Below, piece after piece: positions 5,811 to 61,632 of a stretch of DNA of 64,000 bases. A model generated the notes under the pieces. That model saw nothing but the letters and a program-made list of their open reading frames with translations, had not been told where the DNA came from and searched no databases. The stretch is from the NCBI RefSeq assembly GCF_042242105.1, contig NC_092035.1:55001-119000 (forward strand), written 5' to 3'. Both the position numbers and the translations under genes were made by a program. The DNA is from Pempheris klunzingeri. Taxonomy: Eukaryota; Chordata; Actinopteri; Acropomatiformes; Pempheridae. How positions within the stretch are numbered: position 1 is the stretch's first letter; every line of letters begins with the position of its first letter.

Positions 5811-6934
5811 GCGTGAAGCCGACTGTCATGAGTCTGAGCGCCACCGACCTGACCGAGCTCATGGAGCTGTGGGCGGAGCTAAACCTGACTGCCGCGGACC
5901 ACCACAACCTGTCCCACGTGGAGACACTGCTGTGTTCAGGGGCCGTCAGCCACGCCGCCTTCCTCCACGTCCTCTCTGTCCTCTACATCTTTATCTTTGT
6001 GGTCGGCGTCGCCGCCAACGCCGCGGTGGTCTGGGTCAACCTTCGCTCCAACAGGAGGTGCTACGAGACGCACCTGTACGTCCTGAACCTGGCCGTGGCC
6101 GACCTGTGCGCCATGGCCACGCTGCCGGTGTGGGTGACCTCGCTGCTGCAGGGCGGGCGCTGGCCGTTTGGAGGTGCCGTCTGCAAACTCGCCCACCTGG
6201 TCTTCAGCGTCAACCTCTTCAGCAGCATCTTCTTCCTCGCCTGCATGAGCATAGACCGCTACCTGTCCGTCACGCTGCTCGCCAACGCCCCGGACAGCCG
6301 CAGGAAGAAGGAGGTGCGACGGCTGACCTGCGTCCTGGTCTGGCTGCTGGCGCTGGCGGCCTCCGTCCCCGAGTCCTACTTCCTGCAGGCGGTCAAGTCA
6401 TCACACTCCGATGGTGCCGTTTGTCGGCCGGTTTACCCGTCCGATAACCCCCGGGGGTGGATGGTGGGCGTCCAGCTGAGCTTCACCGTGCTTGGCTTCG
6501 CCATCCCTTTTCCTGTCATCGCCATCTTCTACCTGCTCCTGGCAGCAGTGATCCCTCCCAGCTCGGACCAGGAGCGCCGCATCAGCCGCCGAATCATTCT
6601 GACCTACATCGTGGTGTTCCTGGCGTGCTGGCTGCCGTTCCACACCGTCCTCCTGCTGGACACACTGTCTCTGCTAAACCTGCTGCCCTTCAGCTGCCGG
6701 CTGGAGAACTTCCTGGACGTGGCGCTGCACCTGACGCAGTGCGTCTCTCTGGTCCACTGCTGCGTCAATCCCGTCCTGTACGGCCTTCTCAACAGGAACT
6801 ACCGCTATGACCTCATGAAGGCCTTCATCTTCAAGTACTCCACCAAGACCGGCCTCGCCAGGCTCATCGACGGCTCGCACGCCTCCGAGGCTGATCGCTC
6901 TGCGGTGGCGACGGACAGCAGCGTCCTGGTGTGA
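5811..6934 (+). CDS. ackr3: Atypical chemokine receptor 3 (ACKR3/CXCR7)
   Basis: A seven-transmembrane receptor that binds CXCL12 (and CXCL11) and recruits arrestin rather than G protein. It scavenges ligand and shapes CXCL12 gradients, for example during primordium migration in fish embryos. The coding exon follows a strong acceptor (TTCCTGTTCCAG at 5810). The preferred start is the ATG at 5828, giving 368 aa; the frame is open back to 5774, but that part is intronic. Visible marks: N-terminal glycosylation sites (NLT, NLS), a Cys before TM1, YIFIFVVG in TM1, LNLAVADL in TM2, DRYLSVT at the end of TM3 (ACKR3-type rather than the classical DRYLAIV), CWLPFH in TM6, HCCVNPVLY in TM7, and a C-terminus with NRNYRYDLMKAFIFKYS and KTGLARLID nearly identical to mammalian ACKR3. 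It is full length. Whether it is the a or b teleost paralogue is not decided. Confidence 0.97.
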
Positions 6935-15790: not shown

Positions 15791-16157
15791 CTTTTTAGTT
15801 TCTGGTTTATCTTTGTTTTTGTTTTGTTGCTTTCCGACAGTTTTTTATATGAAACAGAAAATGTGTCAAACATGAATTTACAGAAACAAACAGTCCGGAG
15901 GGTAAAAACACGTTTGTGAGGACTTCATGTCTGAATCCAGAAACAGGAACCTCGTGCTGTTGGAGGTCAGTGGGGGGGGGGGGCATGTGCCGGGAGTCTA
16001 TTTTCTCCGAATCAGTGTGACAAACAGCCAAAGGGGGGTCGGTGTCCCCCCCCCAGGCTATAAAGGCTGGGCGCTTTGTGGCGGCAGCAGACTGAAATAA
16101 ACCACAGAGGAACAGACACCGAAGCACCAGAAGAGGACGAATAGGACGAAGAGGAGC
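15791..16157 (+). promoter_or_regulatory. Promoter and 5'UTR of the MuRF-like gene, TATA box at 16059
   Basis: TATAAA at 16059-16064 lies about 95 bp upstream of the ATG, with a plausible transcription start near 16090. Upstream there is an E-box-like CATGTG within a G-rich tract at about 15975-15992 and a CTATTTTC word near 15999. These fit a muscle-type TATA promoter but are not proof. Confidence 0.6.
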
Positions 16158-17174
16158 ATGGACATCCAGACGGGTCAGCTGGTGCGTCCTGTCGGCGCCA
16201 TGGAGAGTCTGGAGACGCAGCTCAGCTGCCCCATCTGCCTCGACATGTTCACCAAGCCCGTGGTCATCCTGCCCTGCCAGCACAACCTGTGCCGCGGCTG
16301 CGCCAACGACCTGTACGAGTCCAGGAACCCCTACCGCTACTCCGGGGGCACCTTCCGCTGCCCCACCTGCCGCTTCGAGGTGATCCTGGACCGCCACGGC
16401 GTCTACGGGCTGCAGAGGAACCTGCTGGTGGAGAACATAATTGACATTTACAAGCAGCAGCAGGAGAGCCAGGGGGGCGGCGGCGAGGACCCCCCCCTGA
16501 AGGACAAAGACGCCAAAGAACCGAAGTGTAAGGAGCACGAGGACGAGCGCATCAACATCTACTGCGTCAGCTGCCAGACGCCGACCTGTTCCATGTGCAA
16601 GGTGTTCGGCCAGCACAAAGACTGTGAGGTGTCGCCGCTGCACACTGTCTACCAGAGCCAGAAGAACGAGCTGCGCTCCGCCGTGGAGCTGCTCGCCGTC
16701 GGGAACGACTGCGTCCAGGCCGTCATGGCGCAGATGGACGACACCTGCAAAGTGATCGAGGAGAACGCAGAGGTGCAGCGGCGGCGGCTGGGCGAGAGCT
16801 GCGACCTGCTGCACGCCATCCTGGAGGAGCGGAAAGGCGAGCTGCTGGAGCGGATCGACTGCGAGGAGCAGGAGAAGATGGCGGCGCTGCGGGGCCTCCA
16901 GGACCAGTACCGGCAGCAGCTGCAGCTCAGCACCCAGCTGCAGGACCGGCTGACGCAGAGCCTGCAGGCGGCCGGCGCCGCCAGCTTCCTGCTGAGCGCC
17001 CGCAAGCTGCAGGAAGAGGCCCGACAGGCGGCCCACGACGCCACGCTGCAGCGGCCTGAGCCAGGGTACGAGAGCCTGGAGCACCTGAGCCTGGACACCC
17101 GGGAGGCCGAGGCCCTGCTGGCCCGCATGGACTTTAGACGGGGGGGCGAGGAGGAAGACCATGAGGCCGACTGA
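16158..17174 (+). CDS. Muscle RING-finger (MuRF) E3 ubiquitin ligase, TRIM63/54/101-like, intronless
   Basis: MuRF proteins ubiquitinate sarcomeric proteins and associate with the M-line, titin and microtubules. The 338-aa product has a complete C3HC4 RING (C24, C27, C40, H42, C45, C48, C68, C71). The MuRF family signature DRHGVYGLQRNLLVENIIDIYK follows at about 79-99. A B-box 2 (C124, H127, C136, C139, C144, C147, H153) comes next, then a long coiled coil (about 165-275) and a COS-like end (RPEPGYESLEHL). The first ATG at 16158 is used; the one at 16200 would also keep the RING. The gene is one uninterrupted frame, whereas mammalian TRIM63/54/55 have several exons, so this is either a fish intronless lineage or a retrocopy that kept a promoter. 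Similarity is split between MuRF1 and MuRF3, so I give no paralogue symbol. The acidic tail is short. AATAAA follows at 17377. Confidence 0.94.
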   Translation: MDIQTGQLVRPVGAMESLETQLSCPICLDMFTKPVVILPCQHNLCRGCANDLYESRNPYRYSGGTFRCPTCRFEVILDRHGVYGLQRNLLVENIIDIYKQQQESQGGGGEDPPLKDKDAKEPKCKEHEDERINIYCVSCQTPTCSMCKVFGQHKDCEVSPLHTVYQSQKNELRSAVELLAVGNDCVQAVMAQMDDTCKVIEENAEVQRRRLGESCDLLHAILEERKGELLERIDCEEQEKMAALRGLQDQYRQQLQLSTQLQDRLTQSLQAAGAASFLLSARKLQEEARQAAHDATLQRPEPGYESLEHLSLDTREAEALLARMDFRRGGEEEDHEAD

Positions 17175-19378: not shown

Positions 19379-22300
19379 ATGAAGCTGCAAACAGTCGTCC
19401 TGCTGCTCTGCTGCTGCTGCTCAGGTAACGTCAGCGCATCCCGGCGAGGCACCGCTTCACTGCATTACTGTTATTCTACATTAAACTACTATTCTACATG
19501 TAAACTACTATTCTACACGTAAACTACTATTCTACATTAAACTACTATTCTACACGTAAACTGTTATTCTACATTAAACTACTATTCTACACGTAAACTA
19601 CTATTCTACATTAAACTACTATTCTACACGTAAACTACTATTCTACATTAAACTACTATTCTACACGTAAACTACTATTCTACACGTAAACTGTTATTCT
19701 ACATTAAACTACTATTCTACACGTAAACTACTATTCTACATTAAACTACTATTCTACACGTAAACTACTATTCTACATTAAACTACTATTCTACATGTAA
19801 ACTGTTATTCTACATTAAACTACTATTCTACACGTAAACTACTATTCTACATTAAACTACTATTCTACACGTAAACTGTTATTCTACATTAAACTACTAT
19901 TCTACACGTAAACTACTATTCTACATTAAACTACTATTCTACACGTAAACTACTATTCTACATTAAACTACTATTCTACACGTAAACTACTATTCTACAC
20001 GTAAACTACTATTCTACATTAAACTACTATTCTACACGTAAACTGTTATTCTACATTAAACTACTATTCTACACGTAAACTACTATTCTACACGTAAACT
20101 ACTATTCTACATGTAAACTGTTATTCTACACGTAAACTGTTATTCTACATGTAAACTACTATTCTACATGTAAACTACACGTAAACTACTATTCTACACG
20201 TAAACTACTATTCTACATGTAAACTACTCTAATTATTCATCTCAAAATGTTCACCTTTGATCTCATGTAATGACCTCATCTTTGTCTTTGCTGAAATGTT
20301 TGACTTTCTCAAAAATGTTTTTATCTGAAAATGTTCTGTAATTTTCTCATTTTGTCTCAGAGAGTCAAAACGTTTCACGTGTTCTTGTTTTAATGACTTA
20401 ATGAATTTGTTCATTTTTAAATAAAAGTGCAGAAACCCAGAGTTCACAGTTCAAACGCCGCTGATGATCCAAACACAGTTAATAGTTTAACAGAGTTAAA
20501 GAGAACGACAGGAAACCGAAAAGTTCCTGCTGGGAAACAGAATTATCAGTAAAACACCAATAAATACACATAAATACACACTAACCCAAGCGAGGAACGA
20601 CTCTGCTGAGTGAAGTACATGGAGTATTTAAAGAAGTACAAATACACAAACACAAGAAATATAGGAAGAAATACACATATATGTGTACAAGTACTAACAT
20701 AATACTACCATATGTAGTAAGAGTATTTAAATGTGTACAAATTTACAAATACGTACACATACGTAGAGATGTACAACATGTATGTGAATGTGGACATGTA
20801 TGTGATAGCGTACATGTATGTGATGGCGTACATGTATGTGATGGCGTACATGTATGTGAATGTAGACATGTATGTGAATGTGGACATGTATGTGATAGCG
20901 TACATGTATGTGAATGTGGACATGTATGTGATGGCGTACATGTATGTGAATGTAGACATGTATGTGAATGTGGACATGTATGTGAATGTGGACATGTATG
21001 TGAATGTGGACATGTATGTGATGGCGTACATGTATGTGAATGTAGACATGTATGTGAATGTGGACATGTATGTGATAGCGTACATGTATGTGAATGTGGA
21101 CATGTATGTGATAGCATACATGTATGTGAATGTGGACGTGTATGTGATGGCGTACATGTATGTGAATGTAGACATGTATGTGAATGTGGACATGTATGTG
21201 AATGTGGACATGTATGTGATAGCGTACATGTATGTGAATGTGGACGTGTATGTGAATGTGGACATGTATGTGAATGTGGACATGTATGTGAATGTAGACA
21301 TGTATGTGAATGTGGACATGTATGTGAATGTGGACATGTATGTGATAGCGTACATGTATGTGAATGTAGACATGTATGTGAATGTGGACATGTATGTGAA
21401 TGTAGACATGTATGTGAATGTGGACATGTATGTGATAGCGTACATGTATGTGAATGTGGACATGTGTGTGATAGCGTACATGTATGTGAATGTGGACGTG
21501 TATGTGATGGCGTACATGTATGTGAATGTAGACATGTATGTGAATGTGGACATGTATGTGAATGTGGACATGTATGTGAATGTAGACATGTATGTGAATG
21601 TAGACATGGATGTGAATGTGGACATGTATGTGATAGCGTACATGTATGTGAATGTGGGCATGTATGTGATAGCGTACATGTATGTGAATGTGGACATGTA
21701 TGTGATGGCGTACGTGTATGTGAATATGGACATGTATATGATAGCGTACATGTATGTGATAGCGTACATGTATGTGATAGTGTACGTGTATGTGATGGCG
21801 TACATGTATGTGATAGCGTACGTGTATGTGAATGTGGACATGTATATGATAGCGTACATGTATGTGATAGCGTACTTGTATGTGATGGCGTACATGTATG
21901 TGATAGCGTACATGTATGTGATAGTGTACGTGTATGTGATGGCGTACATGTATGTGATAGCGTACATGTATGTGAATGTGGACATGTATGTGATAGCGTA
22001 CTTGTATGTGATGGCGTACTTGTATGTGAATGTGGACATGTATGTGATAGCGTACTTGTATGTGAATGTGGACATGTATGTGATGGCGTACGTGTATGTG
22101 AATGTGGACATGTATGTGATAGCGTACTTGTATGTGAATGTGGACATGTATGTGATAGCGTACATGTATATGAATGTGGACATGTATGTGATAGCGTACA
22201 TGTATGTGATAGCGTACATGTATGTGAATGTGGACATGTATGTGATAGCGTACATGTATGTGAATGTGGACATGTATGTGATAGCGTACATGTATGTGAT

Positions 22301-25300
22301 AGCGTACTTGTATGTGATGGCGTACGTGTATGTGAATGTGGACATGTATGTGATAGCGTACATGTATGTGATAGCGTACTTGTATGTGAATGTGGACATG
22401 TATGTGATGGCGTACGTGTATGTGAATGTGGACATGTATGTGATAGCGTACTTGTATGTGAATGTAGACATGTATGTGAATGTGGACATGTATGTGATAG
22501 TGTACATGTATGTGATAGCGTACATGTATGTGAATGTGGACATGTATGTGATAGCGTACATGTATGTGATAGCGTACATGTATGTGATAGCGTACGTGTA
22601 TGTGAACGTGGACATGTATGTGATAGCGTACATGTATGTGATAGCGTACATGTATGTGATAGCGTACGTGTATGTGATGGCGTACATGTATGTGATAGCT
22701 CACGTGTATGTGATAGCGTACTTGTATGTGATGGCGTACGTGTATGTGAATGTGGACATGTATGTGATAGCGTACGTGTATGTGATAGCGTACTTGTATG
22801 TGAATGTGGACATGTATGTGATAGCGTACTTGTATGTGATGGCGTACATGTATGTGATGGCGTACTTGTATGTGATAGCGTACATGTATGTGATAGCGTA
22901 CTTGTATGTGATGGCGTACATGTATGTGATAGCGTACATGTATGTGATAGCGTACTTGTATGTGATGGCGTACATGTATGTGATAGCGTACATGTATGTG
23001 ATAGCGTACTTGTATGTGAATGTGGACATGTATGTGATAGCGTACTTGTATGTGAATGTGGACATGTATGTGATAGCGTACATGTATGTGATAGCGTACA
23101 TGTATGTGATAGTGTACGTGTATGTGATGGCGTACATGTATGTGATAGCGTACGTGTATGTGAATGTGGACATGTATGTGATAGCGTACATGTATGTGAT
23201 AGCGTACTTGTATGTGAATGTGGACGTGTATGTGATGGCGTACGTGTATGTGAATGTGGACATGTATGTGATAGCGTACATGTATGTGATAGCGTACTTG
23301 TATGTGATGGCGTACATGTATGTGATAGCGTACATGTATGTGATAGTGTACGTGTATGTGATGGCGTACATGTATGTGATAGCGTACGTGTATGTGAATG
23401 TGGACATGTATGTGAATGTGGACATGTATGTGAATGTAGACATGTATGTGAATGTAGACATGTATGTGATAGCGTACATGTATGTGAATGTGGGCATGTA
23501 TGTGATAGCGTACATGTATGTGAATGTGGACATGTATGTGATGGCGTACGTGTATGTGAATATGGACATGTATATGATAGCGTACATGTATGTGATAGCG
23601 TACATGTATGTGATAGTGTACGTGTATGTGATGGCGTACATGTATGTGATAGCGTACGTGTATGTGAATGTGGACATGTATGTGATAGCGTACTTGTATG
23701 TGATGGCGTACTTGTATGTGAATGTGGACATGTATGTGATAGCGTACATGTATGTGATAGCGTACTTGTATGTGAATGTGGACATGTATGTGATGGCGTA
23801 CGTGTATGTGAATGTGGACATGTATGTGATAGCGTACTTGTATGTGAATGTGGACATGTATGTGATAGCGTACATGTATGTGAATGTGGACATGTATGTG
23901 ATAGCGTACATGTATGTGATAGCGTACTTGTATGTGATGGCGTACGTGTATGTGAATGTGGACATGTATGTGATAGCGTACATGTATGTGATAGCGTACT
24001 TGTATGTGAATGTGGACATGTATGTGATGGCGTACGTGTATGTGAATGTGGACATGTATGTGATAGCGTACTTGTATGTGAATGTAGACATGTATGTGAA
24101 TGTGGACATGTATGTGATAGTGTACATGTATGTGATAGCGTACATGTATGTGAATGTGGACATGTATGTGATAGCGTACATGTATGTGATAGCGTACATG
24201 TATGTGAATGTGGACATGTATGTGATAGCGTACATGTATGTGATAGCGTACGTGTATGTGAATGTGGACATGTATGTGATAGCGTACATGTATGTGATAG
24301 CGTACATGTATGTGATAGCGTACGTGTATGTGATGGCGTACATGTATGTGATAGCTCACGTGTATGTGATAGCGTACTTGTATGTGATAGCGTACTTGTA
24401 TGTGAATGTGGACATGTATGTGATAGCGTACGTGTATGTGATAGCGTACTTGTATGTGAATGTGGACATGTATGTGATAGCGTACTTGTATGTGATGGCG
24501 TACATGTATGTGATGGCGTACTTGTATGTGATAGCGTACATGTATGTGATAGCATACTTGTATGTGATGGCGTACATGTATGTGATAGCGTACATGTATG
24601 TGATAGCGTACTTGTATGTGAATGTGGACATGTATGTGATAGCGTACTTGTATGTGATGGCGTACATGTATGTGATAGCGTACATGTAAGTGATAGCGTA
24701 CATGTATGTGATAGCGTACTTGTATGTGATGGCGTACATGTATGTGATAGCGTACATGTATGTGATAGCGTACTTGTATGTGATGGCGTACATGTATGTG
24801 ATAGCGTACATGTAAGTGATAGCGTACATGTATGTGATAGCGTACATGTATGTGATAGTGTACGTGTATGTGATGGCGTACATGTATGTGATAGCGTACA
24901 TGTATGTGAATGTGGACATGTATGTGATAGCGTACATGTATGTGATAGCGTACTTGTATGTGAATGTGGACGTGTATGTGATGGCGTACGTGTATGTGAA
25001 TGTGGACATGTATGTGATAGCGTACATGTATGTGATAGCGTACTTGTATGTGATGGCGTACATGTATGTGATAGCGTACGTGTATGTGAATGTGGACATG
25101 TATGTGATAGCGTACATGTATGTGATAGCGTACATGTATGTGAATGTGGACATGTATGTGATAGCGTACATGTATGTGATAGCGTACGTGTATGTGAATG
25201 TGGACATGTATGTGATAGCGTACATGTATGTGATAGCGTACTTGTATGTGAATGTGGACGTGTATGTGATGGCGTACGTGTATGTGAATGTGGACATGTA

Positions 25301-27728
25301 TGTGATAGCGTACATGTATGTGATAGCGTACTTGTATGTGATGGCGTACGTGTATGTGAATGTGGACATGTATGTGATAGCGTACATGTATGTGATAGCG
25401 TACATGTATGTGAATGTGGACATGTATGTGATAGCGTACATGTATGTGATAGCGTACATGTATGTGAATGTGGACATGTATGTGATAGCGTACTTGTATG
25501 TGAATGTGGACGTGTATGTGATGGCGTACATGTATGTGATAGCGTACATGTAAGTGATAGCGTACATGTATGTGATAGCGTACTTGTATGTGATGGCGTA
25601 CATGTATGTGATAGCGTACATGTATGTGATAGCGTACTTGTATGTGATGGCGTACATGTATGTGATAGCGTACATGTAAGTGATAGCGTACATGTATGTG
25701 ATAGCGTACATGTATGTGATAGTGTACGTGTATGTGATGGCGTACATGTATGTGATAGCGTACGTGTATGTGAATGTGGACATGTATGTGATAGCGTACA
25801 TGTATGTGATAGCGTACTTGTATGTGAATGTGGACGTGTATGTGATGGCGTACGTGTATGTGAATGTGGACATGTATGTGATAGCGTACATGTATGTGAT
25901 AGCGTACTTGTATGTGATGGCGTACATGTATGTGATAGCGTACGTGTATGTGAATGTGGACATGTATGTGATAGCGTACATGTATGTGATAGCGTACATG
26001 TATGTGAATGTGGACATGTATGTGATAGCGTACGTGTATGTGAATGTGGACATGTATGTGATAGCGTACATGTATGTGATAGCGTACTTGTATGTGATGG
26101 CGTACGTGTATGTGAATGTGGACATGTATGTGATAGCGTAGCGTACTTGTATGTGATGGCGTACGTGTATGTGAATGTGGACATGTATGTGATAGCGTAC
26201 ATGTATGTGAATGTGGACGTGTATGTGATGGCGTACGTGTATGTGAATGTGGACATGTATGTGATAGCGTACATGTATGTGATAGCGTACTTGTATGTGA
26301 TGGCGTACGTGTATGTGAATGTGGACATGTATGTGATAGCGTAGCGTACTTGTATGTGATGGCGTACGTGTATGTGAATGTGGACATGTATGTGATAGCG
26401 TACATGTATGTGAATGTGGACATGTATGTGATAGCGTACATGTATGTGAATGTGGACATGTATGTGATAGCGTACTTGTATGTGAATGTGGACGTGTATG
26501 TGATGGCGTACGTGTATGTGAATGTGGACATGTATGTGAATGTGGACATGTATGTGATAGCGTACATGTATGTGATGGTGGAGGTGAAAGTGGAGCTGCT
26601 CAGATCTCAGATCAGCCTGCAGGACGATCTCACTTCAGGTTTTCACACTTCCTGTTGAGGCCGATGGCGACGAGCGGCGCCTCAGCTGGCCGACGAAGAC
26701 AACATCTGTATTTAGACCAGTGATGATGATGATGATGATGATGATGATGGTGATGAAGATGATGAAGATGATGGTGAAGATGATGGTGAAGATGATGGTG
26801 ATGAAGATGATGATGGGTGGTGAAGATGATGATGGTTATGATGATGGTGATGAAGATGATGGTGAAGATGATGGTGATGAAGATGATGATGGGTGGTGAA
26901 GATGATGATGATGGTGATGAAGATGATGGTGAAGATGATGGTGATGAAGATGAGTGGTGAAGATGATGATGGTGATGAAGATGATGATGATGGTGATGAT
27001 GATGGTGATGAAGATGATGGTGAAGATGATGGTGATGAAGATGATGATGGGTGGTGAAGATGATGATGGTGATGATGAAGATGATGGTGATGAAGATGAT
27101 GATGGGTGGTGAAGATGATGATGGTGATGATGATGGTGATGATGATGATGGTGGTGATGATGATGAAGCGCTGATGAAGGGCGCTGCCTGACCTTCACAC
27201 TCACTTTGATGGCAGCTTTTATTCTGAAAATCCACACTAATGTTTGCTGTTGTGTCGGTCAGATGCCAAAGGGGCGGGGCCTGAGGCGGGGCACCGTGAT
27301 GTGGCGGCGTCCCGCGATCAGGCTAACAGATTCTTGGACAGACTACGGAGACCCAGGAGGAACATCTGGGACCGCAGCAGGCCAGATGTTCAGCAGTGGA
27401 TCCAGCAGCTGAGGAACATGGGATACGACGAGGCGGTGCGTTTAATACAAAACACGATGACACGATATTTATTACAAATCATCGTCGTTTAAATCTTCAT
27501 GAAGACTTTGTTTCATGGTTGAAAGCTCCAGAAAAAACAACAATTATTTTGAAAGGTCACAAACGCTTCCTGTTTCAGAGGCTGGAGGCGGACCTGTCCT
27601 ACTGGATGGACCAAAGGCGCTCCTCTGATCAGGGGCGTCAGCATCAGTACGACGAGAACGCCGCCGTGGGGCCGCGGGACGCCTCGTCCTACAGACACGG
27701 CGCCGACGTCAACTACGACTATTATTGA
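19379..27728 (+). CDS. ecrg4: Augurin / ECRG4 secreted peptide precursor
   Basis: ECRG4 is a secreted or surface-tethered peptide precursor linked to growth control and neuroendocrine signalling. Exons: 19379-19424 (signal peptide MKLQTVVLLLCCCCS, donor GTAACG), 27263-27435, and 27579-27728. The last two are secure: ANRFLDRLRRPRRNIWDR, PDVQQWIQQLRNMGYDEA, LEADLSYWMDQ and the C-terminus HGADVNYDYY match human augurin, including the dibasic processing site RRPRR before NIWDR. The first exon is inferred from strand, signal peptide and matching phase 1 junction; direct joining gives 122 aa against 148 in human. The missing part corresponds to the segment after the human signal peptide, and I could not find that exon. 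Intron 1 (7.8 kb) is almost all tandem repeat. In human the gene is also near ST6GAL2. Poly(A) signal at 27778-27783. Confidence 0.88.
19470..20226. repeat. 18-19-bp minisatellite in ecrg4 intron 1
   Basis: About 40 units of TACTATTCTACACGTAAAC, TACTATTCTACATTAAAC and TGTTATTCTACATTAAAC. It starts roughly 45 bases after the exon 1 donor. Unit types alternate (ACACG versus ACATT), indicating a two-unit higher-order pattern. Confidence 0.95.
20227..20777. other. Spacer between the two large arrays of ecrg4 intron 1
   Basis: AT-rich, with TTTGTCTCAG-like acceptor words, but no frame resembling the missing ecrg4 exon. Near the end, ACACATACGTAGAGATGTAC looks like decayed array sequence. Confidence 0.4.
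20778..26577. repeat. Giant 18-bp minisatellite, about 320 units (5.8 kb), in ecrg4 intron 1
   Basis: Units share CATGTATGTGA and end in one of three ways: ATGTGGA, TAGCGTA or TGGCGTA; CTTG and CGTG variants replace CATG. The 18-bp period keeps most frames free of stops on both strands, producing hypothetical proteins of up to about 1,900 residues that are only six-residue repeats. Larger duplications are visible: the unique word TAGCTCAC at 22696 recurs at 24352, exactly 92 units (1,656 bp) later. TGGGCATG at 21655 recurs at 23491, 102 units later, so blocks were copied and later changed in length. Four units carry TGTAAGTG. Two near the right end contain a 5-bp GCGTA insertion. Confidence 0.98.
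26720..27170. repeat. GAT/GAA trinucleotide-rich array in ecrg4 intron 1
   Basis: GATGATGGTGATGAAGATGA-type repeats with higher-order copies separated by a GGGTGGTGAAGATGATGATG word that recurs at about 70-130-bp intervals. The array ends about 95 bp before the acceptor of the next ecrg4 exon. Confidence 0.95.
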
Positions 27729-29899: not shown

Positions 29900-30180
29900 C
29901 AGCTGCACACAGGGACCACCACAGACCTGCAGGGACCACCACAGACCACCACAGACCTGCAGGGACCACCACAGACCACCACAGACCTGCAGGGACCACC
30001 ACAGACCACCACAGACCTGCAGGGACCACCACAGACCTGCAGGGACCACCACAGACCACCACAGACCTGCAGGGACCACCAGAGACCTACAGAGACCTGC
30101 AGGGACCAACAGGGATCCACAGAGACCTGCAGGGACCAACAGGGACCAACAGGGACCAACAGGGATCCACATAGATCCAC
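29900..30180. repeat. 20-30-bp minisatellite upstream of the TMT opsin
   Basis: Units of GACCACCACAGACCTGCAGG with and without an extra ACCACCACA, changing to GGACCAACAG and GATCCACATA variants towards the right end. It lies 180 bp upstream of the opsin start. The CTGCAG core recurs in each full unit. Confidence 0.93.
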
Positions 30181-30360
30181 ATAGATCCAGACCAGAGCTC
30201 AGGCCAATGGGGAAACTGAGTGGAACCTGATCAGACCGGAATAAAAAGCTTATTGATCATTTTCTTTCGGGATGGAGCGACGCCACAGGTCCACTCTTCT
30301 TCGTCCCTCTTCATCACGCTGACTCCTCCTCGGCACGTCAGCTGGTGGTTCGCTCCAAAG

Positions 30361-33326
30361 ATGACCCCCCCTCTCCTCGCCACGTGGCGTGGTGCCGCCG
30401 TCACGTTCTCCACGCTGAGTGACCTCAACGTGACGTCCAATCTGAGCGAAGCCACGCCCCCTCAGGAGCAGGACTGGAGCGGCCTGCCGCCGGAGCGCCT
30501 GTCACGGGGGGGCCACCGCGCGGTGTCCGCGTTTCTGGGCGCTATCATGGTGTTCGGGTTCCTGAACAACCTGCTGGTTCTGGTTCTGTTCTGCCGCTTC
30601 AAGACTCTGCGGACGCCCGTCAACATGCTGCTGCTGAACATCAGCGTCAGCGACATGCTGGTCTGCGTCTGCGGCACCACGCTCAGCTTCGCCTCCAGCC
30701 TGCGGACGCGCTGGATGTACGGACGCCACGGCTGCATGTGGTACGGCTTCGTCAACTCCTGCTTCGGTGAGTGACCTGTTCCTGTCTGGGTGTTCCAGGT
30801 GTTCCGGGTGTTCCAGGTGTTCCGGGTGCCTGACTTCCTGTTTCCTGCCCCCCCAGGCGTCGTGTCTCTGGTCTCTCTGGCCGCTCTGTCCTACGACCGT
30901 TACAGCACCCTGCTGGTGTACAACAAGCGGGCCGCGGACTACAGGAAGCCCCTGCTGGCGGTGGGGGGGTCGTGGCTGTACTCGGTGGCGTGGACGGTGC
31001 CCCCCCTGCTGGGCTGGAGCAGCTACGGGCTGGAGGGGGCGGGGACCAGCTGCTCGGTCACCTGGACCCAAAGGACGACGGCGTCCCACTCCTACATCAT
31101 CTGTCTGTTCGTCTTCTGCCTCGGCCTCCCCGTCCTCGCCATGGTCTACTGCTACGGCCGCCTGCTGCACGCCGTCCGACAGGTGGTCGCACGGGGGGTC
31201 ACGTGGTCACACGGGTGAGTCAGGCCGTTCTTATAGTTTCACCCTGGGTTTTGTCTGTCAGGTGGGACGTGTCAGGCGGACGGCGGCCCGTCGCAGGGAG
31301 TTCCACATCCTGTTCATGGTCGTCACCACGGTGACGTGCTACCTGCTCTGCTGGATGCCGTACGGCGTCGTCGCCATGATGGCCACCTTCGGCCGGCCGG
31401 GAGCCATCAGCCCCGTCGCCAGCGTCGTCCCGTCGATCCTCGCCAAGAGCAGCACCGTCATCAACCCGCTGATCTACATCCTCATGAACAAACAGGTGGG
31501 GTCACATGAGTCACACGGGGGGGGGGTCACATGACCAAAAACATCAGTGTTTTTTTCAGCTGCATGAACATTAACGAAAAAACGTTTTCCAAATGAACAA
31601 GAAATGAAGAGAAATATGAAAAACACACATTCATTAGAAAATAAAACGGACAAAAGAAAATAAATGAAGACTGAAAAATATTTTCTTGTTTCTAAACTAA
31701 AGACAGAAATGGACCAACAGAGAATCCAGTCAAATGAATTAGCCTAGCTAGCTAGCATCATGCTAAGCTAAACAACCACACACAGGTGTTACAAACAGGA
31801 AGTTTTATTGAAGCAGAAACCACACTAGCGCGACAACAGAGGCGTCACCACGGCAACAACACAGGGACAGATTAAATCTGCCTCGACAACAAAAAACCCC
31901 AAAAATACAATTTATAGAGAATTATGTTAAAGTGGATTTAATCTTCGGTGGAAAGACACAAAAATAAACACGTCTCATTATTATTGTTATATAATAATAT
32001 TATTACTACTGTTAATATTAATATTATTCAAATTATTAATATTAATAATTTTATTAATAATATTATTACTACTGTTAATAATCATATTATTAATATTATT
32101 GCTCATTTTAACATTTTAACAACCAACAGAAATTCACTTTCCCGCTTTTACTTGTGAGACGTTTCAGTTCGTAGTTTTTCACAGTGTCTCGGTGGTTTCA
32201 GCCTCTAATCGTGACGTCCTGGGTGGGGGGACAGCTCGGGGGCGTTCGGGGGTCTGAGGGGTTCACAAATTTAGGGGAGTTTGATTCTGCCTGAAGCCAG
32301 GACAGCCCCCCCTCCGGCTAAACCCAGGTCAGGACCCACAGTGGACCCCCCCCAGCCCTTTCAGAGTGACCTTGCCTTTGGCCGCCAGCTGGTCGCCCCC
32401 CCCCTCATTGATCCTCTGGATCAGCAGCTTCTCGTACAGCAGGGGGTGGTACCCCCCCAGCGTGCAGGCGTCGTCACGGTAACGCTCGTAGTAGTGACAC
32501 AGGTCGGTGCGGCGGATGGACGGGAGAAACTCGTACACGCTGACCTCACGACACAGTGACATCATCAGCACGATACCTGGGGGGGGCAGGAAGTGACAAC
32601 GGAGCAGCTCAGACCATTTTTCAGCTAAAAGTTACAAAAATAAAAAAGTACAATAAAAGAAGAAATAATCTGAATGTTTAAAACAAGTTTAGTTACAGAG
32701 AAGAAACTAACAGAAAATAAAACCAGGACGTTTTTCAGCTTCAGTGTCCACATTACCCAGAATCCTCTCTGTCTGAGTGACTGCTGGGTATTAGAAGTGT
32801 ACTAGAACTGGTCCAGTCGTTCACCTCCACCAGACTCCATTCACAAGAACAGTAATTTTACACAGGAGCTGCTGCCTCCATCAGTTAGTCTGTTTGTGTT
32901 GTTTTGAGACTTTTGTGTTTTAAAGAATTAATTTGGATCCAACTAAATATTCGTTTAACTCACGAACACACTGACTGATGGAGGCAGCAGCAGACCAGGA
33001 GGTCCTGTGTTCTCTGAGCTAAAATTACTGTTTTTGTGAATGGAGTCTGGCATGAGATCCACTGGACCAGTACCTGCCAGTCACTTATCACAGTCACAGA
33101 AACACTTATCGATCATCATTGATTATCATTGATCCTATTTGTTCCTCAGTTCTACCGCTGCTTCCTGATCCTGTTCCACTGTGAACACCAGCTGACAGAG
33201 ACCGCCCCCCCCTCCGTGGTCTCCAGGACCACCGCCCTCAAGCTCCGGCGCCGCCACAGCAGCCCGCTCCATCTGGAGGGGACCAGCGGCGATCAGCTGA
33301 GACCGGACCCGCCCACACCTGTGTGA
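30361..33326 (+). CDS. tmtops: Teleost multiple tissue (TMT) opsin
   Basis: TMT opsins are non-visual photopigments of the encephalopsin group, expressed in brain and many fish tissues and proposed to serve peripheral clocks and deep-brain light sensing. Exons: 30361-30766, 30857-31182, 31262-31495 and 33150-33326, all GT-AG, totalling 380 aa. Seen: N-terminal glycosylation sites (NVT, NLS), [19 protein letters not shown] in TM2, SYDRY at residues 147-151, Glu in [13 protein letters not shown] (counterion position), CWMPYG in TM6, and the retinal-binding K306 in [12 protein letters not shown]. The four-exon layout is typical of TMT opsins. The ATG at 30361 is chosen; the frame extends upstream to 30220 but those residues look non-membrane and unlike the family. 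Introns 1 and 2 are only 90 and 79 bp; intron 3 (1,654 bp) contains the final exon of st6gal2 on the other strand. Which TMT subgroup is not settled. AATAAA lies at 33426-33431. Confidence 0.93.
31804..31809 (-). terminator. st6gal2: Candidate polyadenylation signal of st6gal2
   Basis: AATAAA on the minus strand, about 520 nt past the st6gal2 stop at 32329. It lies inside opsin intron 3. Confidence 0.5.
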
Positions 33327-36300
33327 CTGTGATGTCACTCTAGCTGTGTCCAATCAGCTGTGAACTCAACGATCAGCTGACCTTGTTTATTTACACATGA
33401 TTTATGATGATGATGATTTCAAACCAATAAAATAAATTAAATAAATCTGTTTGTTCAAAAACCACAAACAGAAAAAAGAGACTTTTGAATTTTTTTTTCT
33501 GAATTTTTATTTTAAGCCAAAAACATAAAAACAAAGTGACACTTTTAGTTTCCGAACAAAATAAGGAAAACAAATTCGTCTTTTTCCATTTGGGACGGAC
33601 AGGAAGAGGAAATGAAGTGTCAAAATAAAAGCCCAGAGGACAGAATGGCTTTAATAACTTGACCTAAAGCAAAGAACATAAAACTAAATAAAGATCTTTA
33701 TTTGTGTAGCCTGTGTCTGCATTAGTTAATCTGTCTGTCTGGCTTTAATTTTGACAGTTTAACACCTCACTTCCTCTTCCTGTCTGTCCCAAACGGAAAA
33801 ACAAATTTCCTCGTTTTGTTCGGAAACTAAAAATGTGATTTTACGTTTTCGGTTTAAAAGAAACAAAAATAACTGTTTTTAAACTACTAATAGACTACTA
33901 ATAAACTACTGATGGATGACAGATAAACTACTGATGGATGACAGATAAACTACCGAGGAATGACAGATAAACTACCATAAATTATGATAAATGATGGATA
34001 AACTACTGATGGATGACAAATAAACTACTGATAAATTATGATAAATGACAAATGAACTACCAATGAATGACGGATAAACTACAGATAAATGTCAGATAAA
34101 CTACCGATAAATCATGATAAATGACAAATAAACTACAGATAAATCATCATAAATGACGGATAAACTACTGATGATTGACAGATAAACTACAGATGAATGA
34201 CGGATAAACTACTGATAAATGACGGATAAACTACAGATAAATGACGGATAAACTACCGATAAATGACAGATAAACTACAGATGAATGACATTAACTACAG
34301 ATAAATGACAGATAAACTACAGATAAATGACATATAAACTACAGATAAATGACATAAACTACAGATAAATGACAGATAAACTACAGATAAATGACAGATA
34401 AACGACAGACAAATGACAGATAAACTACAGATAAACTACAGATAAATGACAGATAAACTACAGATAAATGACATATAAACTACAGATAAATGACATTAAC
34501 TACAGATGAATGGCAGATAAACCACAGATAAATGACATATAAACTACAGATAAATGACAAACTACAGATAAATGACATATAAACTACAGATAAATGACAT
34601 AAACTACAGATAAACTACAGGTAAATGACATATAAACTACAGATAAATGACATAAACTACAGATAAATGACATATAAACTACAGATAAACTACAGATAAA
34701 TGACATAAACTACAGATAAATGACATAAACTACAGATAAATGACAGATAAACTACAGATAAATGACATAAACTACAGATAAATGACATATAAACTACAGA
34801 TAAATGACATAAACTACAGATAAATGACATAAACTACAGATAAATGACAGATAAACTACAGATAAATGACATTAACTACAGATAAATGACAAGCTACATA
34901 AATGTACGAATCGTTTAAATGTGTTTTAGAAACAACGTGAGCTTCAGGTTCTTTCTGATAAATAGAATTAATAATTCAGTTATTTATTTAAAGTAAACAT
35001 GTTCAATGTAAAAAGACACATTGACCTTCATCCATTCAGCATAATTAATTTCCTCTTTAGGTTTTAATTCATAAACATATTCATTAGTAAATTATTCAAA
35101 TTAAATCAAGAGGAATTTAAAGTTTTAATTAAAGTTTTGTGTCCAAGGTCAATAATAGTAACCTTTTTATGTTTATTAAAGCTGAATTCAGGAAGGTAAC
35201 ATTTAATCAACATCACACAACATCACATTTACTTATTTTTAGTATAAATGTGAGTATTTTCAGTGTTAATGTGAGTATTTGTAGTGTTTTTGTGTCTTTG
35301 GGGCTTTCGGGAGGTTTAACAGGTGAATTCATATTTTAAAATGTTTTCTGTCACATTAAAACATGATGACTGTTTCTGAGTTTCTACTTTGACAAACTCT
35401 CGTCCTTTTAACTTTTAAACTGGGAAACCTCAGAAACACAAACTGTCGTTTGAATGTTTCAGCCTCAGTTAGTCTCTCAGCTAAAACGTGCTGATTTTTC
35501 TATGGACTCTGGTCTGTCTGCTGCTGCTGTTTAAATAAAGATCAGTCAGCTGATCGCCGTCCTGCGTGTCTTTATTCAATCTGATATTGTGATTGTGGTA
35601 CTCTGTAGTACTGTGTGTAGTAGTCTGCAGTACTCTGTAGTACTCTGCAGTACTCTCTAGTACTGTGTGTAGTACTCTGTAGTACTCTGCAGTACTCTGT
35701 AGTATTCTGTCGTACTGTGTGTAGTACTCTGCAGTACTCTGTAGTACTGTGTGTAGTACTCTGCAGTACTCTGCAGTACTCTGTCGTACTGTGTGTAGTA
35801 CTCTGTAGTACTCTGGACTACTGTGTGTAGTACTCTGCAGTACTCTGGAGTACTATGTGTAGTACTCTGCAGTACTCTGTCATACTGTGTGTAGTACTCT
35901 GCAGTACTCTGTAGTACTCTGCAGTACTGTGTGTAGTACTCTGTAGTACTCTGTCGTACTGTGTGTAGTACTCTGCAGTACTCTGTCGTACTGTGTGTAG
36001 TAGTCTGCAGTACTCTGTAGTACTCTGCAGTACTCTCTAGTATTCTGTCGTACTGTGTGTAGTACTCTGCAGTACTCTGTAGTACTGTGTGTAGTACTCT
36101 GTAGTACTCTGCAGTACTCTGTAGTATTCTGTCGTACTGTGTGTAGTACTCTGCAGTACTCTGCAGTACTCTGTCGTACTGTGTGTAGTACTCTGGACTA
36201 CTGTGTGTAGTACTCTGCAGTACTCTGGAGTACTATGTGTAGTACTCTGCAGTACTCTGCAGTACTCTGGAGTACTGTGTGTAGTACTCTGCAGTACTCT

Positions 36301-38694
36301 GCAGTACTCTGTAGTATTCTGTCATACTGTGTGTAGTACTCTGCAGTACTCTGTAGTACTCTGCAGTACTGTGTGTAGTACTCTGTAGTACTCTGGAGTA
36401 CTGTGTGTAGTACTCTGCAGTACTCTGTCGTACTGTGTGTAGTACTCTGTAGTACTCTGGACTACTGTGTGTAGTACTCTGCAGTACTCTGCAGTACTCT
36501 GGAGTACTATGTGTAGTACTCTGTAGTACTATGGACTACTGTGTGTAGTACTCTGCAGTACTCTGCAGTACTCTGGACTACTGTGTGTAGTACTCTGCAG
36601 TACTCTGCAGTACTCTGGAGTACTATGTGTAGTACTCTGCAGTACTCTACAGTACTCTGGAGTACTGTGTGTAGTACTCTGCAGTACTGTGTGTAGTATT
36701 CTGCAGTACTCTGCAGTACTCTGGACTACTGTGTGTAGTACTCTGCAGTACTCTGCAGGACTCTGGAGTACTGTGTGTAGTACTCTGCAGTACTCTGGAG
36801 TACTCTGGAGTACTGTGTGTAGTACTCTGCAGTACTCTGCAGTACTCTGGACTACTGTGTGTAGTACTCTGCAGTACTCTACAGTACTCTGGAGTACTGT
36901 GTGTAGTACTCTGCAGTACTGTGTGTAGTACTCTGCAGTACTGTGTGTAGTACTCTGCAGTACTCTGGACTACTGTGTGTAGTACTCTGCAGTACTCTGC
37001 AGGACTCTGGAGTACTGTGTGTAGTACTCTGCAGTACTCTGGAGTACTGTGTGTAGTACTCTGCAGTACTCTGGAGTACTCTGGAGTACTGTGTGTACTA
37101 CTCTGCAGTACTGTGTGTAGTACTCTGCAGTACTCTGCAGTACTCTGGAGTACTGTGTGTAGTACTCTGTAGTACTCTGCAGTACTCTGCAGTACTCTGC
37201 AGTACTCTGGACTACTGTGTGTAGTACTCTGCAGTACTCTGCAGTACTCTGCAGTACTCTGGAGTACTCTGCAGTACTCTGCAGTACTCTGCAGTACCTG
37301 TGAACCCTGAGGACGGCGGGTTGGGCTGGATCTGCTCCTCACTGTTGTCCTGGATCAGGTCCCACAGGCTCCAGATGAATTGTGGGTGAAGGATGTAAAA
37401 CGGCTGCTCAGGTCGCCGCCGCCGCCGCTCCAGGTACGGAGAGAACAGGTCGAAGTCTGGCTCCTCCCACCACTGAGGAAGACAGCGACATCTTCATCAC
37501 CATCATCATCACCGACGACAGGCTGTCTGTCGAAGGCGTTTAAATAAAGTTTGGGAGGAAGGTCAGAGGTGGTCGACCTCGGTGAGGTTGGCGGAGTACG
37601 GCGAAGGATCCCAGAGGAGGAGGACGACGTCCTGGTAGAGAGACGAGCTGCTGAAGTGATGCAGGGGGCGGGACACGATCTGGGGGGGGGCAGAGAGGGA
37701 GTTAGGGGGGGGGTCCACATGAACAAACAGCTGATCCAGGTGAGGGGGCGGAGTCACTACCTGGGAGTTGATGATGCGGATCGTGGTCTTGTTGCCGACA
37801 TCTCTCTCGAAGCCTCTGGTCGGGGCGGCGTTGAAACGGAGAACGGCATCATGGGAGTCTGAGTCCAACGGGAGAGGAGCGGGTTAGGTGGTCGCTCATA
37901 AAACTGCACCTGAACGCACCTGACGGGCATTAAAGGTAACGAGGGGGGCAGAAGTTTCAAAGTAAAAGTCTTTATCTATAGTACAAAAACTTTATTGATA
38001 GTAAAATAACTTTTGATCGATTAGATTTGACGTGTTCACTGATCAGAAACCTCTGTTCAAAGGATCAGTTGTGTTTTTACATCAAGACAAAGTATCTCTG
38101 TGAAATGCCCCCCCCCCCCGTGACCCTCAGGTTGGACCCCCCCATCCTGGACTCACCGATCTCAGTCCCCAGCGATGAGTTCAGGACGCCTCCGGCCGAC
38201 GTCACCACAGCGCAGCTCTGGTACTCAGACGTCCGGAGCTCCTGCAGGGGCACTGAAGGCACCAGGTGGGCCCAGCCCAGACCGGAGAACGGCTCCTCAG
38301 TCCCGTCCACGGTCCGGACCCTGGTCCTCCTCTTCAGCTCACAGTACAGCTCCGGGCCGGACCGGCGGCCCCCCCTTGGCCCCCGGTGCATCACCTGGTG
38401 CCTGTTGGAGCTCAGCTGGACCTTCAGAACCCTCTGGAGACGAGGACTCAGCATCCCAGCCGTCAGGGTCCCGGCCCACAGCCTCCGCAGGATCTCCAGA
38501 GACCAGGAGTCAGCTCTGTGGAACCCCCCCTGAAGGGAGGCCAGACGGCGGGTCTCGGTCCAGGTGAGACCGGACTCTGCAGCAGACCTGGACAGCGACG
38601 AGGATCTGAGGTCCAGGAAGTGACAGAGCAGCGACAGGAACAGGAGGAGCCAAGCCAGAAGGACCAGCAGGAGCCACTTCCTGTAAGGCTTCAT
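32329..38694 (-). CDS. st6gal2: Beta-galactoside alpha-2,6-sialyltransferase 2
   Basis: A Golgi type II enzyme that transfers sialic acid in alpha-2,6 linkage to terminal galactose. Exons on the minus strand: 38694-38157, 37858-37761, 37679-37578, 37472-37298 and 32576-32329. Joined frames close exactly to 386 aa. Visible: a short cytosolic tail then a membrane anchor (about 7-28); sialyl motif L from C161 with LNSSLG and [59 protein letters not shown]; motif [20 protein letters not shown] (C313); motif [16 protein letters not shown]; and VS-motif H348 and E353 in HPLLYEK. It is closest to ST6GAL2 (human about 529 aa) but has a much shorter stem. An acceptor just before the ATG implies a 5'UTR exon upstream. 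The last intron (4.7 kb) holds the opsin's last exon, a 1.7-kb minisatellite and a foldback element. The exon 3 donor (GAG|GTCGAC) is weak. Confidence 0.95.
32829..33050. mobile_element. Foldback (inverted-repeat) element, near-complete copy
   Basis: ACCAGACTCCATTCACAAGA at the left is mirrored by TTTTTGTGAATGGAGTCTGG at the right. Inner words AATTTTACACAGGAGCTGCT, GCTGCCTCCATCAGTTAG and GACTGATGGAGGCAGCAGC are likewise paired. The symmetry may extend to CTGGTCCAG at about 32813 and CTGGACCAG at about 33061. It has no coding capacity. Related copies lie at 57325-57545 and 58262-58498. Confidence 0.8.
33426..33431 (+). terminator. tmtops: Candidate polyadenylation signal of the TMT opsin
   Basis: AATAAA about 100 nt after the opsin stop, repeated in overlapping AATAAA/AAATAAAT words to 33446. 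Confidence 0.6.
33432..33890. other. St6gal2 intron sequence; no gene seen
   Basis: AT-rich, with an inverted similarity between about 33535-33600 and 33770-33840 (GTTTCCGAACAAAA / TTTTGTTCGGAAAC), which could form a hairpin about 300 bp long. Confidence 0.45.
33891..34895. repeat. Minisatellite of about 21 bp in the st6gal2 intron
   Basis: Variants of GATAAACTACAGATAAATGA with CA, CGG and CATAT linkers, about 45 copies. The left part is more diverged (CTGATGGATGACAGATAAAC), suggesting directional homogenisation towards the right. Confidence 0.93.
34896..35590. other. St6gal2 intron sequence; no gene seen
   Basis: AT-rich DNA between two tandem arrays with no coding frame of note. Confidence 0.45.
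35595..37296. repeat. st6gal2: AGTACTCTGC minisatellite abutting a st6gal2 splice donor
   Basis: About 1.7 kb of ten-base-like units AGTACTCTGC, AGTACTCTGT, AGTACTCTGG and AGTACTGTGTGT. The units contain the palindromes AGTACT and CTGCAG, so the array is rich in self-complementary sequence. On the minus strand the right edge is the 5' splice site of st6gal2 exon 4: the donor GTACTGCAGAG at 37297 is itself repeat-unit sequence. Open frames of up to 230 codons across it are by-products. Confidence 0.97.
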
Positions 38695-38699
38695 ACTGG

Positions 38700-38735
38700 A
38701 CCTGGGGAGGGGGGGGGGGGGGGGGGGGGGGGGTG
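38700..38735. repeat. G run upstream of the st6gal2 coding start
   Basis: About 25 consecutive G on the plus strand (C on the st6gal2 strand), which forms the pyrimidine tract of the acceptor preceding the start exon. Length is likely to vary and to be error-prone in sequencing. Confidence 0.85.
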
Positions 38736-38739
38736 TCAG

Positions 38740-41188
38740 AGGTCAGAAATCAGGCCTGGATGATAATTAACTGAATAAATAAATAAAAATTGGTTTTACC
38801 TGGTTAGATTTTAATCCTAACCCCTTAAACCAAACTTCATGTAAAATTTGACCATTTTAAGACAATAAAACATGCTGATCTCTGGGTTTGATTGACAGCT
38901 GCTTGGTGTTACCTGTCACAGGTGTGCAGTTTAACGGCTTGTTCTCCAAGGGTCAGTCTGCCGAGTCCACGCTCCGTCTTCCCACAATCCTGTGCTTCAT
39001 GTCACCACCAGTGCTGTACTGGGATGTGAACTGATCCACTGGTTTACTGTTAAAGTTCCTTTTGGGGGGGGGTGAGCTGCATTCTGATTGGCTGCCTCAG
39101 CCTCACTCTTTATTTCAGTCTCACAGCAACACGACACACTGGGATGTTACCATGACGACCGCAGTAATGATGGAGGCCTCCGAGAGTGAGGGGGTAATGC
39201 TGCGTTCATGTCCTGTCACACAGGTCGTAAATATGAGCGTCCCAGTGAAGAACAAACTGTTGGGGCTCAGAGAGGAAAACCAGCGAGGGGTTAACTGGAG
39301 GTCTGAACGTTGGACCTGATCCCAAACAGACTCATGGGAAACCGACTCGGACATGATCCGCATACATAGTAAAAGTGTTGGAACTGGTCCAGTAGATCAC
39401 CTCAGCCAGCAGCCACCAAACGGGCTGCAATGGCTGCAACGTGATCCTTTGGGACAACTGCACCTGATCACAGTAGGTCCACTAAAAGAGCTTGTTTGAT
39501 CCACTGACAGGCTCAGAGTGTTATTCTAAGTGTGTGACAGCATCATGGAAAGGATCCCTACAGAGAGAGACCTGGAAGATCCTTTTTCACATCAAAGAGA
39601 ACAGAGTCAAACTGAGATGTTGCATGAGTTTAATTCAGAGTTTCACACTGATCAATAACCCCACTGTCAGCTCATCTGATTAACCCATATATTGATCCCC
39701 CACATCCTAATCAATAGGACACCATAAAATACATTAAAGTTTTCACCCAATCAGATTCATGTTCACACACCTCACACAAGTGGACACACCGTCACCGTGC
39801 CGACGGCCACCTGAGGATGAGGAGCTGAGCGATGCTCCTCGCCGACTCGTACATTCAGAAACAGACGCGTTATTGCGATACCTCAGTCACGTGATCTTTT
39901 TAGAACGAATGACGAGTTTGATTCCAGGACGACTTCGAAACAAACACCCGCAGACGTGTTTTCTAGGAACCAATGAAACACCTGCAGATGTCAGAGTCCG
40001 CCCACCCTCACACCTGGCCAATCAGTGTGTGGAGTGGGCGTGGTTGCCATGGTGACAGCAGGTTCAGACGTTTGACAGGATCAAACTCTTCATGCGTTCA
40101 CTGATGATTCAGCACAGACACGAACATTCAGACATTTACAAGCTGGTGATTTGACACCCGAGCGCCAGCAAAAGCGTGATGAGCCCGGTGTGGCCACGCC
40201 CCCGCTGTTACCTGAACATAAAGATGTGGCCGGGGGGGGGGGGGGGGGCAGAAAACTTAAAGTGTGAAACGTTGTGCGCTGAATGAAACTTTTTGTCTTC
40301 AGAGTGATTCTACTGAACTGGTCTATCGTCCAGCGCACCAAACCTAATTCTAAAAACAGGCGAAATAAGACGTCAACATGAGCACGGAGAAGAAACAAAA
40401 GCCACCAAGAAACTAAATAAAGTTAAAAACTGATCCGGGTCGATCCGGTCCGATGGTGTCTCTCTGCTGTGGTTGGCCGCCCCCCCGGGTGACACAGATG
40501 TAGGAGCTGAGTGTTGATGAGGCAGACATGGCGTTGGTTTAACTCACCTGGAGGAGCCGGGCGGGTGGAGTTTACCCCCCGAGGACCAGATTCAGCCCCT
40601 GAAGAGGACTGAAGTGACTCTGGGACTGATTCTGTTCTGGTCTGATCTGGACCTCTGAGACCTGCTTCAAGTTAAAACTCATCTCAGTGGATAAAGTCCG
40701 TTAATTTATGTCCAACGTTAATGTGAGATGATTTTAAGTCACCTTGACGAAACAAACCAGATCCACATCAGACCACCTGATCTACATCAGACCACCTGAT
40801 CCTCATCAGACCACCTGATCCACATCAGACCACCTGATCCGAAGTCTCTCTCTATAAGACTGGTTGCCGTGGAGATGTTTGGTTGGTTTAACTCTGCCCA
40901 TGCTGAGGTCGGCACCAGGATTACAGAGCTACATTATGCTCAGACTCCGTCTGTCCTCTGATTGGTTGATCGATTGATCGATTGATCACTGATCACGTTT
41001 AGTTTTTCAGATTCTGTGTTTGGTTTGTTCGGCGCTCAGTCGACTCCACCCGCCCGGTGCTGCACGCAGAGAGAAAACAAGCGCTGATTGTCTGTCAGTC
41101 TGTCAGGCTGGAGAGGGGACCACAACAGTCCACTGGATGACCAGGACCGGGACCGGGACCGGGACCTGGACTGGGACCGGGACCAGGG
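38740..41188. other. Intergenic between st6gal2 and lrrfip1
   Basis: No additional gene recognised. It holds the second copy of the 95-bp dispersed repeat (39374-39470), a G run at 40231-40248, a 20-bp tandem repeat ATCAGACCACCTGATCCAC (about five copies, 40765-40845), (GATT)n near 40970-40988, and a CCGGGA hexamer run at 41145-41185 touching the lrrfip1 stop codon. It should include the st6gal2 5'UTR exon and promoter and the lrrfip1 3'UTR, neither of which I can delimit. Confidence 0.5.
39374..39470 (+). repeat. Dispersed 95-bp repeat, copy 2
   Basis: Near-identical to 17892-17990 in content and orientation, over 21 kb away. This indicates a recent transposition or conversion. Confidence 0.85.

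Positions 41189-61632
<20,444 letters not shown>

Follow-up and report, generated by a model that had tools for sequence, protein, structure and literature searches.

Reciprocally nested last exons of a TMT-type opsin gene and st6gal2 at two paralogous loci of a fish genome

How do two protein-coding genes on opposite strands come to carry each its last exon within the last intron of the other, and what keeps such an arrangement in place? The question is raised by a TMT-type opsin gene and the sialyltransferase gene st6gal2, which overlap in a stretch of 64,000 nucleotides (the window; C24:55001-119000) from a genome of 646 Mb assembled into 439 contigs. The gene content of the window points to a ray-finned fish. 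With a probability of about 0.62, we regard the two genes as a real, ancient, reciprocally interlocked convergent pair of a TMT2-type opsin and st6gal2, which has lasted through mechanical locking. Gene models, transcription units and poly(A) sites were all predicted from the DNA sequence of this species. Domains were called with Pfam, and structural homologues were compared using PDB sequences (4js1) and an alignment to bovine rhodopsin. Paralogous loci were sought in the same genome with both window proteins as queries, terminal exons being located by tblastn.

The opsin is encoded on the plus strand by four coding exons, which join in frame to yield a protein of 380 amino acids with a single terminal stop. 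Exon 1 (30361..30766) ends at a GT donor, exon 2 (30857..31182) carries a DRY-like motif and the Glu181 equivalent, exon 3 (31262..31495) contains the Lys296 equivalent and NPLIY and closes with NKQ, and exon 4 (33150..33326) encodes helix 8 and the C-terminal tail. The protein matches Pfam 7tm_1 (E=3.8e-45), and its alignment to bovine rhodopsin runs unbroken from NKQ at the end of exon 3 into exon 4, at the position of helix 8. Equivalents of Lys296, Glu181 and Tyr113 (rhodopsin numbering) were read by eye off this alignment. Tyr113 and Glu181 serve as a criterion for TMT opsins (Kato et al. 2016, PMC5115664), and the same source describes chicken cTMT-L as a four-exon gene whose junctions match those of zebrafish TMT2B. 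Four coding exons, as in cTMT-L, are present both in the window opsin and in a paralogue on contig C10 described below. Both also have st6gal2 as a neighbour, a criterion for the TMT2 subgroup, and on this basis the window opsin is classed as probably TMT2-type, our tree covering loci of its own genome. The first AATAAA past the opsin stop codon (33426..33431, plus strand) is the candidate poly(A) signal.

The st6gal2 coding sequence lies on the minus strand and consists of five exons that join in frame into 386 amino acids, again with a single terminal stop. Coding exon 1 (38157..38694) holds the membrane anchor, the stem and, by alignment to 4js1, the start of the catalytic domain; it is followed by exon 2 (37761..37858), exon 3 (37578..37679), exon 4 (37298..37472) and, after a last intron at 32577..37297, the last coding exon (32329..32576). 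All seven introns of the two genes (three in the opsin, four in st6gal2) are GT-AG, and the weakest-looking donor among them is that of st6gal2 exon 3 (ACCGAG/gtcgac). A candidate poly(A) signal, AATAAA, is found at 31804..31809 on the minus strand. The protein matches Pfam Glyco_transf_29 (E=8.3e-37), and its best PDB match is ST6GAL1 4js1 (E=1.2e-98), the next other families scoring 3.7e-15 or weaker. The last exon by itself matches the GT29 family in Pfam (E=1.8e-5) and aligns to 4js1 without a gap. It spans the last part of sialyl motif S together with motifs III and VS (HPLLYE), so a protein stopping earlier would lose part of the catalytic domain.

The names ST6GAL2 and ST6GAL1 are assigned provisionally, from human sequences and from the published adjacency of the former to TMT2. 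The genome contains a third ST6GAL gene, on C32, which is presumably st6gal1, and the window gene is nearer to its C10 counterpart than to this third gene in three of the four exons compared: identities to C10 and C32 are 94 and 82% in exon 2, 64 and 53% in exon 4, and 68 and 59% in exon 5. Exon 3 points in the opposite direction (50% of 32 residues to C10, 57% of 28 to C32). The stem of the window protein is much shorter than that of the C10 copy, exon 1 encoding about 180 amino acids as against about 335.

The two gene models are hooked into each other. The last intron of st6gal2 encloses opsin exon 4 (33150-33326), and on the opposite strand opsin intron 3 (31496..33149) encloses the entire last exon of st6gal2 (32329-32576). 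Being on opposite strands with overlapping 3' parts, the genes constitute, as predicted, a convergent overlapping protein-coding pair. A sequence-only reading of this stretch had named both genes, described this mutual interlock and held that neither exon is spurious. The identities are supported by the domain matches and the rhodopsin and 4js1 alignments, the interlock was recovered at the same coordinates with both models closing in frame across GT-AG introns, and the predicted terminal exons are not spurious, given the Pfam matches, the two alignments and their recurrence on C10. The coding sequences alone make the two transcription units overlap by 998 bp (32329-33326), and the overlap grows to about 1.6 kb when each unit is extended to its nearest AATAAA (31804-31809 on the minus strand, 33426 on the plus strand); the earlier figure of at least 1 kb, including both poly(A) regions, is thus narrowly borne out. 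Its suggestion of antisense pairing fares less well where mRNAs are concerned. In the models, the st6gal2 intron takes in all of opsin exon 4 and of the opsin 3' end (to about 33.45 kb), and the opsin intron takes in all of the last exon and 3' end of st6gal2 (from about 31.78 kb), so that the mature mRNAs, as modelled, share no complementary exon; the overlap would be confined to the pre-mRNAs, and only unspliced nuclear RNA could pair.

Much of the last intron of st6gal2 in the window consists of tandem arrays, two of them large. One of these, at 35594-37302 (units of 32-74 bases, GTACTCTGCAG-like), abuts and crosses the donor of exon 4, so that the donor GTACTG (37297/37298) forms the edge of the array. 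The other, at 33880-34891, is AT-rich with a 42-base unit, ATAAACTACAGATAAATGAC..., and lies just past the opsin 3' end.

The same topology recurs elsewhere in the genome. Contig C10 carries a second tmt-st6gal2 pair with the same order and relative strands, mirrored: on the plus strand st6gal2 exon 4 ends at 20680148 and exon 5 occupies 20686184-20686431, while on the minus strand opsin exon 3 has its end at 20690663 and exon 4 occupies 20683236-20682973. The terminal exons were matched by tblastn with E=3e-11 (opsin exon 4) and E=1e-35 (st6gal2 exon 5), and opsin exon 4 has a clean acceptor (TTTCTCAG) followed by a reading frame of 87 residues. The st6gal2 last exon measures 248 bases at both loci. 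In window-C10 comparisons, pS exceeds pN in opsin exon 4 (0.487 and 0.285 over 35 codons, in frame) and in st6gal2 exon 5 (0.708 and 0.230 over 79 codons); for opsin exon 3 the values are 0.644 and 0.100. In both copies, the other two frames of opsin exon 4 are interrupted by stops.

The spacing of these exons differs between the loci. Opsin intron 3 spans 7,426 bases on C10 versus 1,654 in the window, and the stop-to-stop overlap 3,459 versus 998 bases. When window positions 30000-39000 were compared by blastn with the 13.5 kb C10 interval, with the low-complexity filter on, the matches were those of four exons plus one of 19 bases at chance level (E=0.10), and no non-coding similarity was detected under these settings. 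The topology has been kept between the copies and the intervening sequence has not, the spacing having changed severalfold. The C10 copy is a strong argument that neither the local assembly nor the models are in error. Assembly error, which the sequence-only reading had itself named as a refutation, is now largely answered, with both interlocked loci taken from one assembly.

When did the interlock arise? A tree of six TMT-like opsins resolves three pairs: C9/C14 (support 0.982), C15/C21 (0.976) and C24/C10, the last two sequences being sisters with support 0.998 and 75.0% identity over 304 sites. Two members in each of the three groups suggest a single genome duplication, which we infer to be that of teleosts, and the interlock would then be older than the C24/C10 duplication, presumably the teleost one. 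Outside fish, half of the topology is already in print: according to a figure legend, the fourth exon of chicken TMT2 lies within an intron of st6gal2 (PMC5115664). Taken together with the fish interlock, this would date the topology to the bony-vertebrate ancestor, to which it probably traces if the chicken half reflects common descent. The genes uxs1 and st6gal2 flank TMT2 in chicken, TMT2B in zebrafish and, as data not shown, TMT2 in frog, whereas in flycatcher and lizard the neighbours of TMT1 are st6gal1 on one side and gpr35 on the other (PMC5115664). From this TMT1-st6gal1 adjacency, the TMT-ST6GAL neighbourhood may be older than the vertebrate duplications.

Seven loci of the genome were taken as TMT or OPN3, and exon 4 could be placed in six of them (C24, C10, C9, C14, C21 and C12), two of which (C24 and C10) are interlocked with st6gal2. 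A search for st6gal exons 4 and 5 at C21, C15, C9, C14 and C12 returned only chance-level matches (E=0.28 and 0.54, over 13 and 15 residues), and no st6gal exon was found at the four other loci with a placed exon 4 (C9, C14, C21 and OPN3 on C12). Among these four, only the exon at C21 is well supported by score (E=4e-4 and 2e-4); those at C9 (E=0.02) and C14 (E=0.01-0.07) are weak matches at the expected place, resting more on position and splice sites, and that on C12 (E=1.0-1.8) was placed by eye from frame and acceptor. The 3.4 kb around exon 3 at C15 yielded no exon 4, and this locus is counted neither with the interlocked nor with the unlinked ones. A single opsin-like exon match on C5 lies outside the seven loci counted. 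Intron 3 measures about 156 bases at C9, 747 at C14, 0.7 kb at C12 and about 6.7 kb at C21; room for an interlock is therefore present at other TMT opsins, as at C21, yet no st6gal exon was found there. Conversely, a search for opsin exon 4 near or inside the last intron (about 1.26 kb) of the C32 st6gal gene gave nothing above chance. The C12 locus (C12:26503000-26514496) contains OPN3 and a KMO-like gene, convergent and without interlock, their stop codons about 3.2 kb apart. These two labels are provisional, based on motifs and on the published adjacency of the genes. The opn3-kmo adjacency in fish is described in PMC5115664, and no OPN3-KMO overlap is reported in the available text of PMC2447278 and PMC6008986 or among the further papers listed. 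As in the window, an opsin relative here stands beside an enzyme gene; unlike the window pair, the two are merely adjacent.

Among the papers listed in the literature searched, PMC5115664 was the one found to join a TMT opsin with st6gal2, and a search for a named class of interlocked genes gave nothing useful among those listed. The chicken locus (cTMT-L) shares with ours the placement of opsin exon 4 within a st6gal2 intron, but its description, in the part of that paper available, covers one half of the topology, the reciprocal half being implied, draws no conclusion from it and includes no paralogous copies. As far as these searches show, the explicit reciprocal interlock and its presence at both paralogous fish loci are new. 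The same applies to the negative results, in which neither the other st6gal gene nor the remaining TMT/OPN3 loci with a placed exon 4 were found to have it and no non-coding similarity was detected between the interlocked copies. Convergent 3'-3' overlapping pairs have been catalogued (PMC2330155, PMC2335118) and agree with ours in opposite strands and partial 3' overlap, although the classes set out in the available text do not separate the reciprocal nesting of coding exons. Of the 328 partial convergent pairs counted there in human, mouse retains 153 (46.65%), whereas the fish interlock persists between old paralogues and, by half, in chicken. Gene overlaps are poorly conserved across Metazoa, those that remain being retained non-randomly (PMC2330155).

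What could have maintained the pair for so long? With transcription, splicing and poly(A) use as predicted, a polymerase producing a full-length mRNA of either gene would have to traverse the last exon of the other. The traversed exon would be antisense in that transcript and would be spliced out with the last intron, and a normal protein would result from each gene; polymerase collision and pairing of unspliced RNA may still occur. Each last exon encodes a needed part, namely helix 8 and the tail of the opsin and the C-terminal part of the sialyltransferase catalytic domain, and breakpoints between the genes would therefore sever the end of one or both, so that the arrangement would persist. 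The pair would be undone mainly by the loss of one gene, which is consistent with placental mammals, reported to have no TMT gene (PMC5115664). Because only exons align between the copies, a mechanical lock would explain persistence better than conserved regulatory sequence. It appears to be the simplest reading, two old duplicates being a weak test of it. Several points weigh against it. The dating is thin, since it draws on a single pair of paralogues and on the legend of one chicken figure. Missing non-coding similarity is weak evidence against function, as regulatory sequence can turn over and two copies were compared. Furthermore, the three-exon isoform of chicken TMT2 (PMC5115664) shows that some opsin transcripts do without the last exon, in keeping with a regulatory explanation.

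Such an explanation would make the interlock a switch maintained by selection: transcription of st6gal2 would stall opsin polymerases before exon 4, favouring early polyadenylation in intron 3 and so a three-exon opsin lacking helix 8, whereas with st6gal2 silent the full opsin would be produced. We hold this tentatively and consider it rather unlikely. It draws on chicken TMT2, for which three-exon and four-exon forms were recovered by 3' rapid amplification of cDNA ends, the long form reportedly giving a light response and the short form no response (PMC5115664). In both fish copies there is a short open read-through past opsin exon 3, and AATAAA signals occur in intron 3 ahead of the st6gal2 end; in the window, two AATAAA at 31640..31664 on the plus strand could serve a three-exon form as early poly(A) signals. 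These two compare with 0.9 expected by shuffling of 31496-31803, however, so that there is no enrichment of early poly(A) signals in this part of the window intron; the length of the C10 intron (7,426 bases) makes its AATAAA signals uninformative, and no sequence around these motifs is common to the copies. Precedents come from two gene pairs in print: transcription of Trdn-as in cis favours proximal polyadenylation of Trdn (PMC13401598), and transcription of Mcts2 favours intronic polyadenylation of H13 (PMC13309782). In the former, as would be the case here, the gene end and the protein form depend on a neighbour being transcribed in cis, but the partner is a non-coding RNA, and the mechanism shown there is hypothetical for the fish pair; in the latter, transcription within the host gene drives intronic polyadenylation, but the gene is nested, with no reciprocal interlock. 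Against the switch, medaka TMT1A lacking its 63 C-terminal residues was expressed about 10 times better and its G-protein activation could be measured (PMC4619619), which suggests that tail loss as such, perhaps with helix 8 retained, need not inactivate the opsin. A bolder version, in which the interlock has served for over 400 million years as a conserved transcriptional switch, with the activity of st6gal2 setting for each neuron a helix-8-bearing or a truncated photoreceptor, is quite improbable in our estimate; its hook might even predate the two vertebrate genome duplications, because TMT1 lies beside ST6GAL1 in lizard and flycatcher. If it were true, a glycosylation gene would gate light sensitivity in cis.

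The remaining explanations fare worse. Mutual silencing through an RNA duplex of the two transcripts could make use of the pre-mRNA overlap (about 1.6 kb in the window, 3,459 bases stop to stop on C10), but the modelled spliced mRNAs have no complementary exon at either locus, and the duplex would need unspliced RNA or far longer 3' untranslated regions; we judge it very improbable. That the interlock arose separately at the two fish loci and in chicken, convergent genes often overrunning each other, would agree with the poor conservation of overlaps as a class across Metazoa (PMC2330155). Against such independent origins, for each of the two genes, the nested exon and the intron that hosts it are the same at both fish loci, the opsin half is also seen in chicken (PMC5115664), and the four other TMT/OPN3 loci with a placed exon 4 yielded no st6gal exon, which leaves this explanation only a marginal chance. 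An assembly error or wrongly assigned last exons is hardly credible. Large tandem arrays such as those at 33880-34891 and 35594-37302 are places where assemblies fail, and a single assembly supplied both loci; yet the C10 copy shows the same topology amid unrelated inter-exon sequence, and both terminal exons have family sequence and clean acceptors.

Mechanical locking of an ancient pair, the preferred reading, and regulation make the locus a clean case for whether gene overlaps last because they have a regulatory role or because they are unable to be undone, the interlock being present at both duplicated fish loci and, by half, in chicken. Two paralogous loci with very different spacing, together with placental mammals that have no TMT gene, amount to a natural experiment. 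There is also specific reason to seek the three-exon TMT2 isoform, and its control, in fish brain.

The rest of the window contains several further features. A probable multi-exon coiled-coil gene occupies about 41000-54000 on the minus strand; its long reading frame at 45043-47232 and one patched peptide gave no Pfam match, and the gene may be LRRFIP1-like. A long satellite at 20585-26634, made of VCDSVHVCECGH-type repeats, is free of stops over as many as 1,963 codons in several frames of both strands and is a likely source of false gene predictions. An open frame with RING and B-box domains is found at 16101-17174 and is presumably MuRF/TRIM63-like. Finally, positions 5753-6934 encode a single-exon class A G-protein-coupled receptor (Pfam 7tm_1, E=2.5e-60), which appears to resemble ACKR3/CXCR7.

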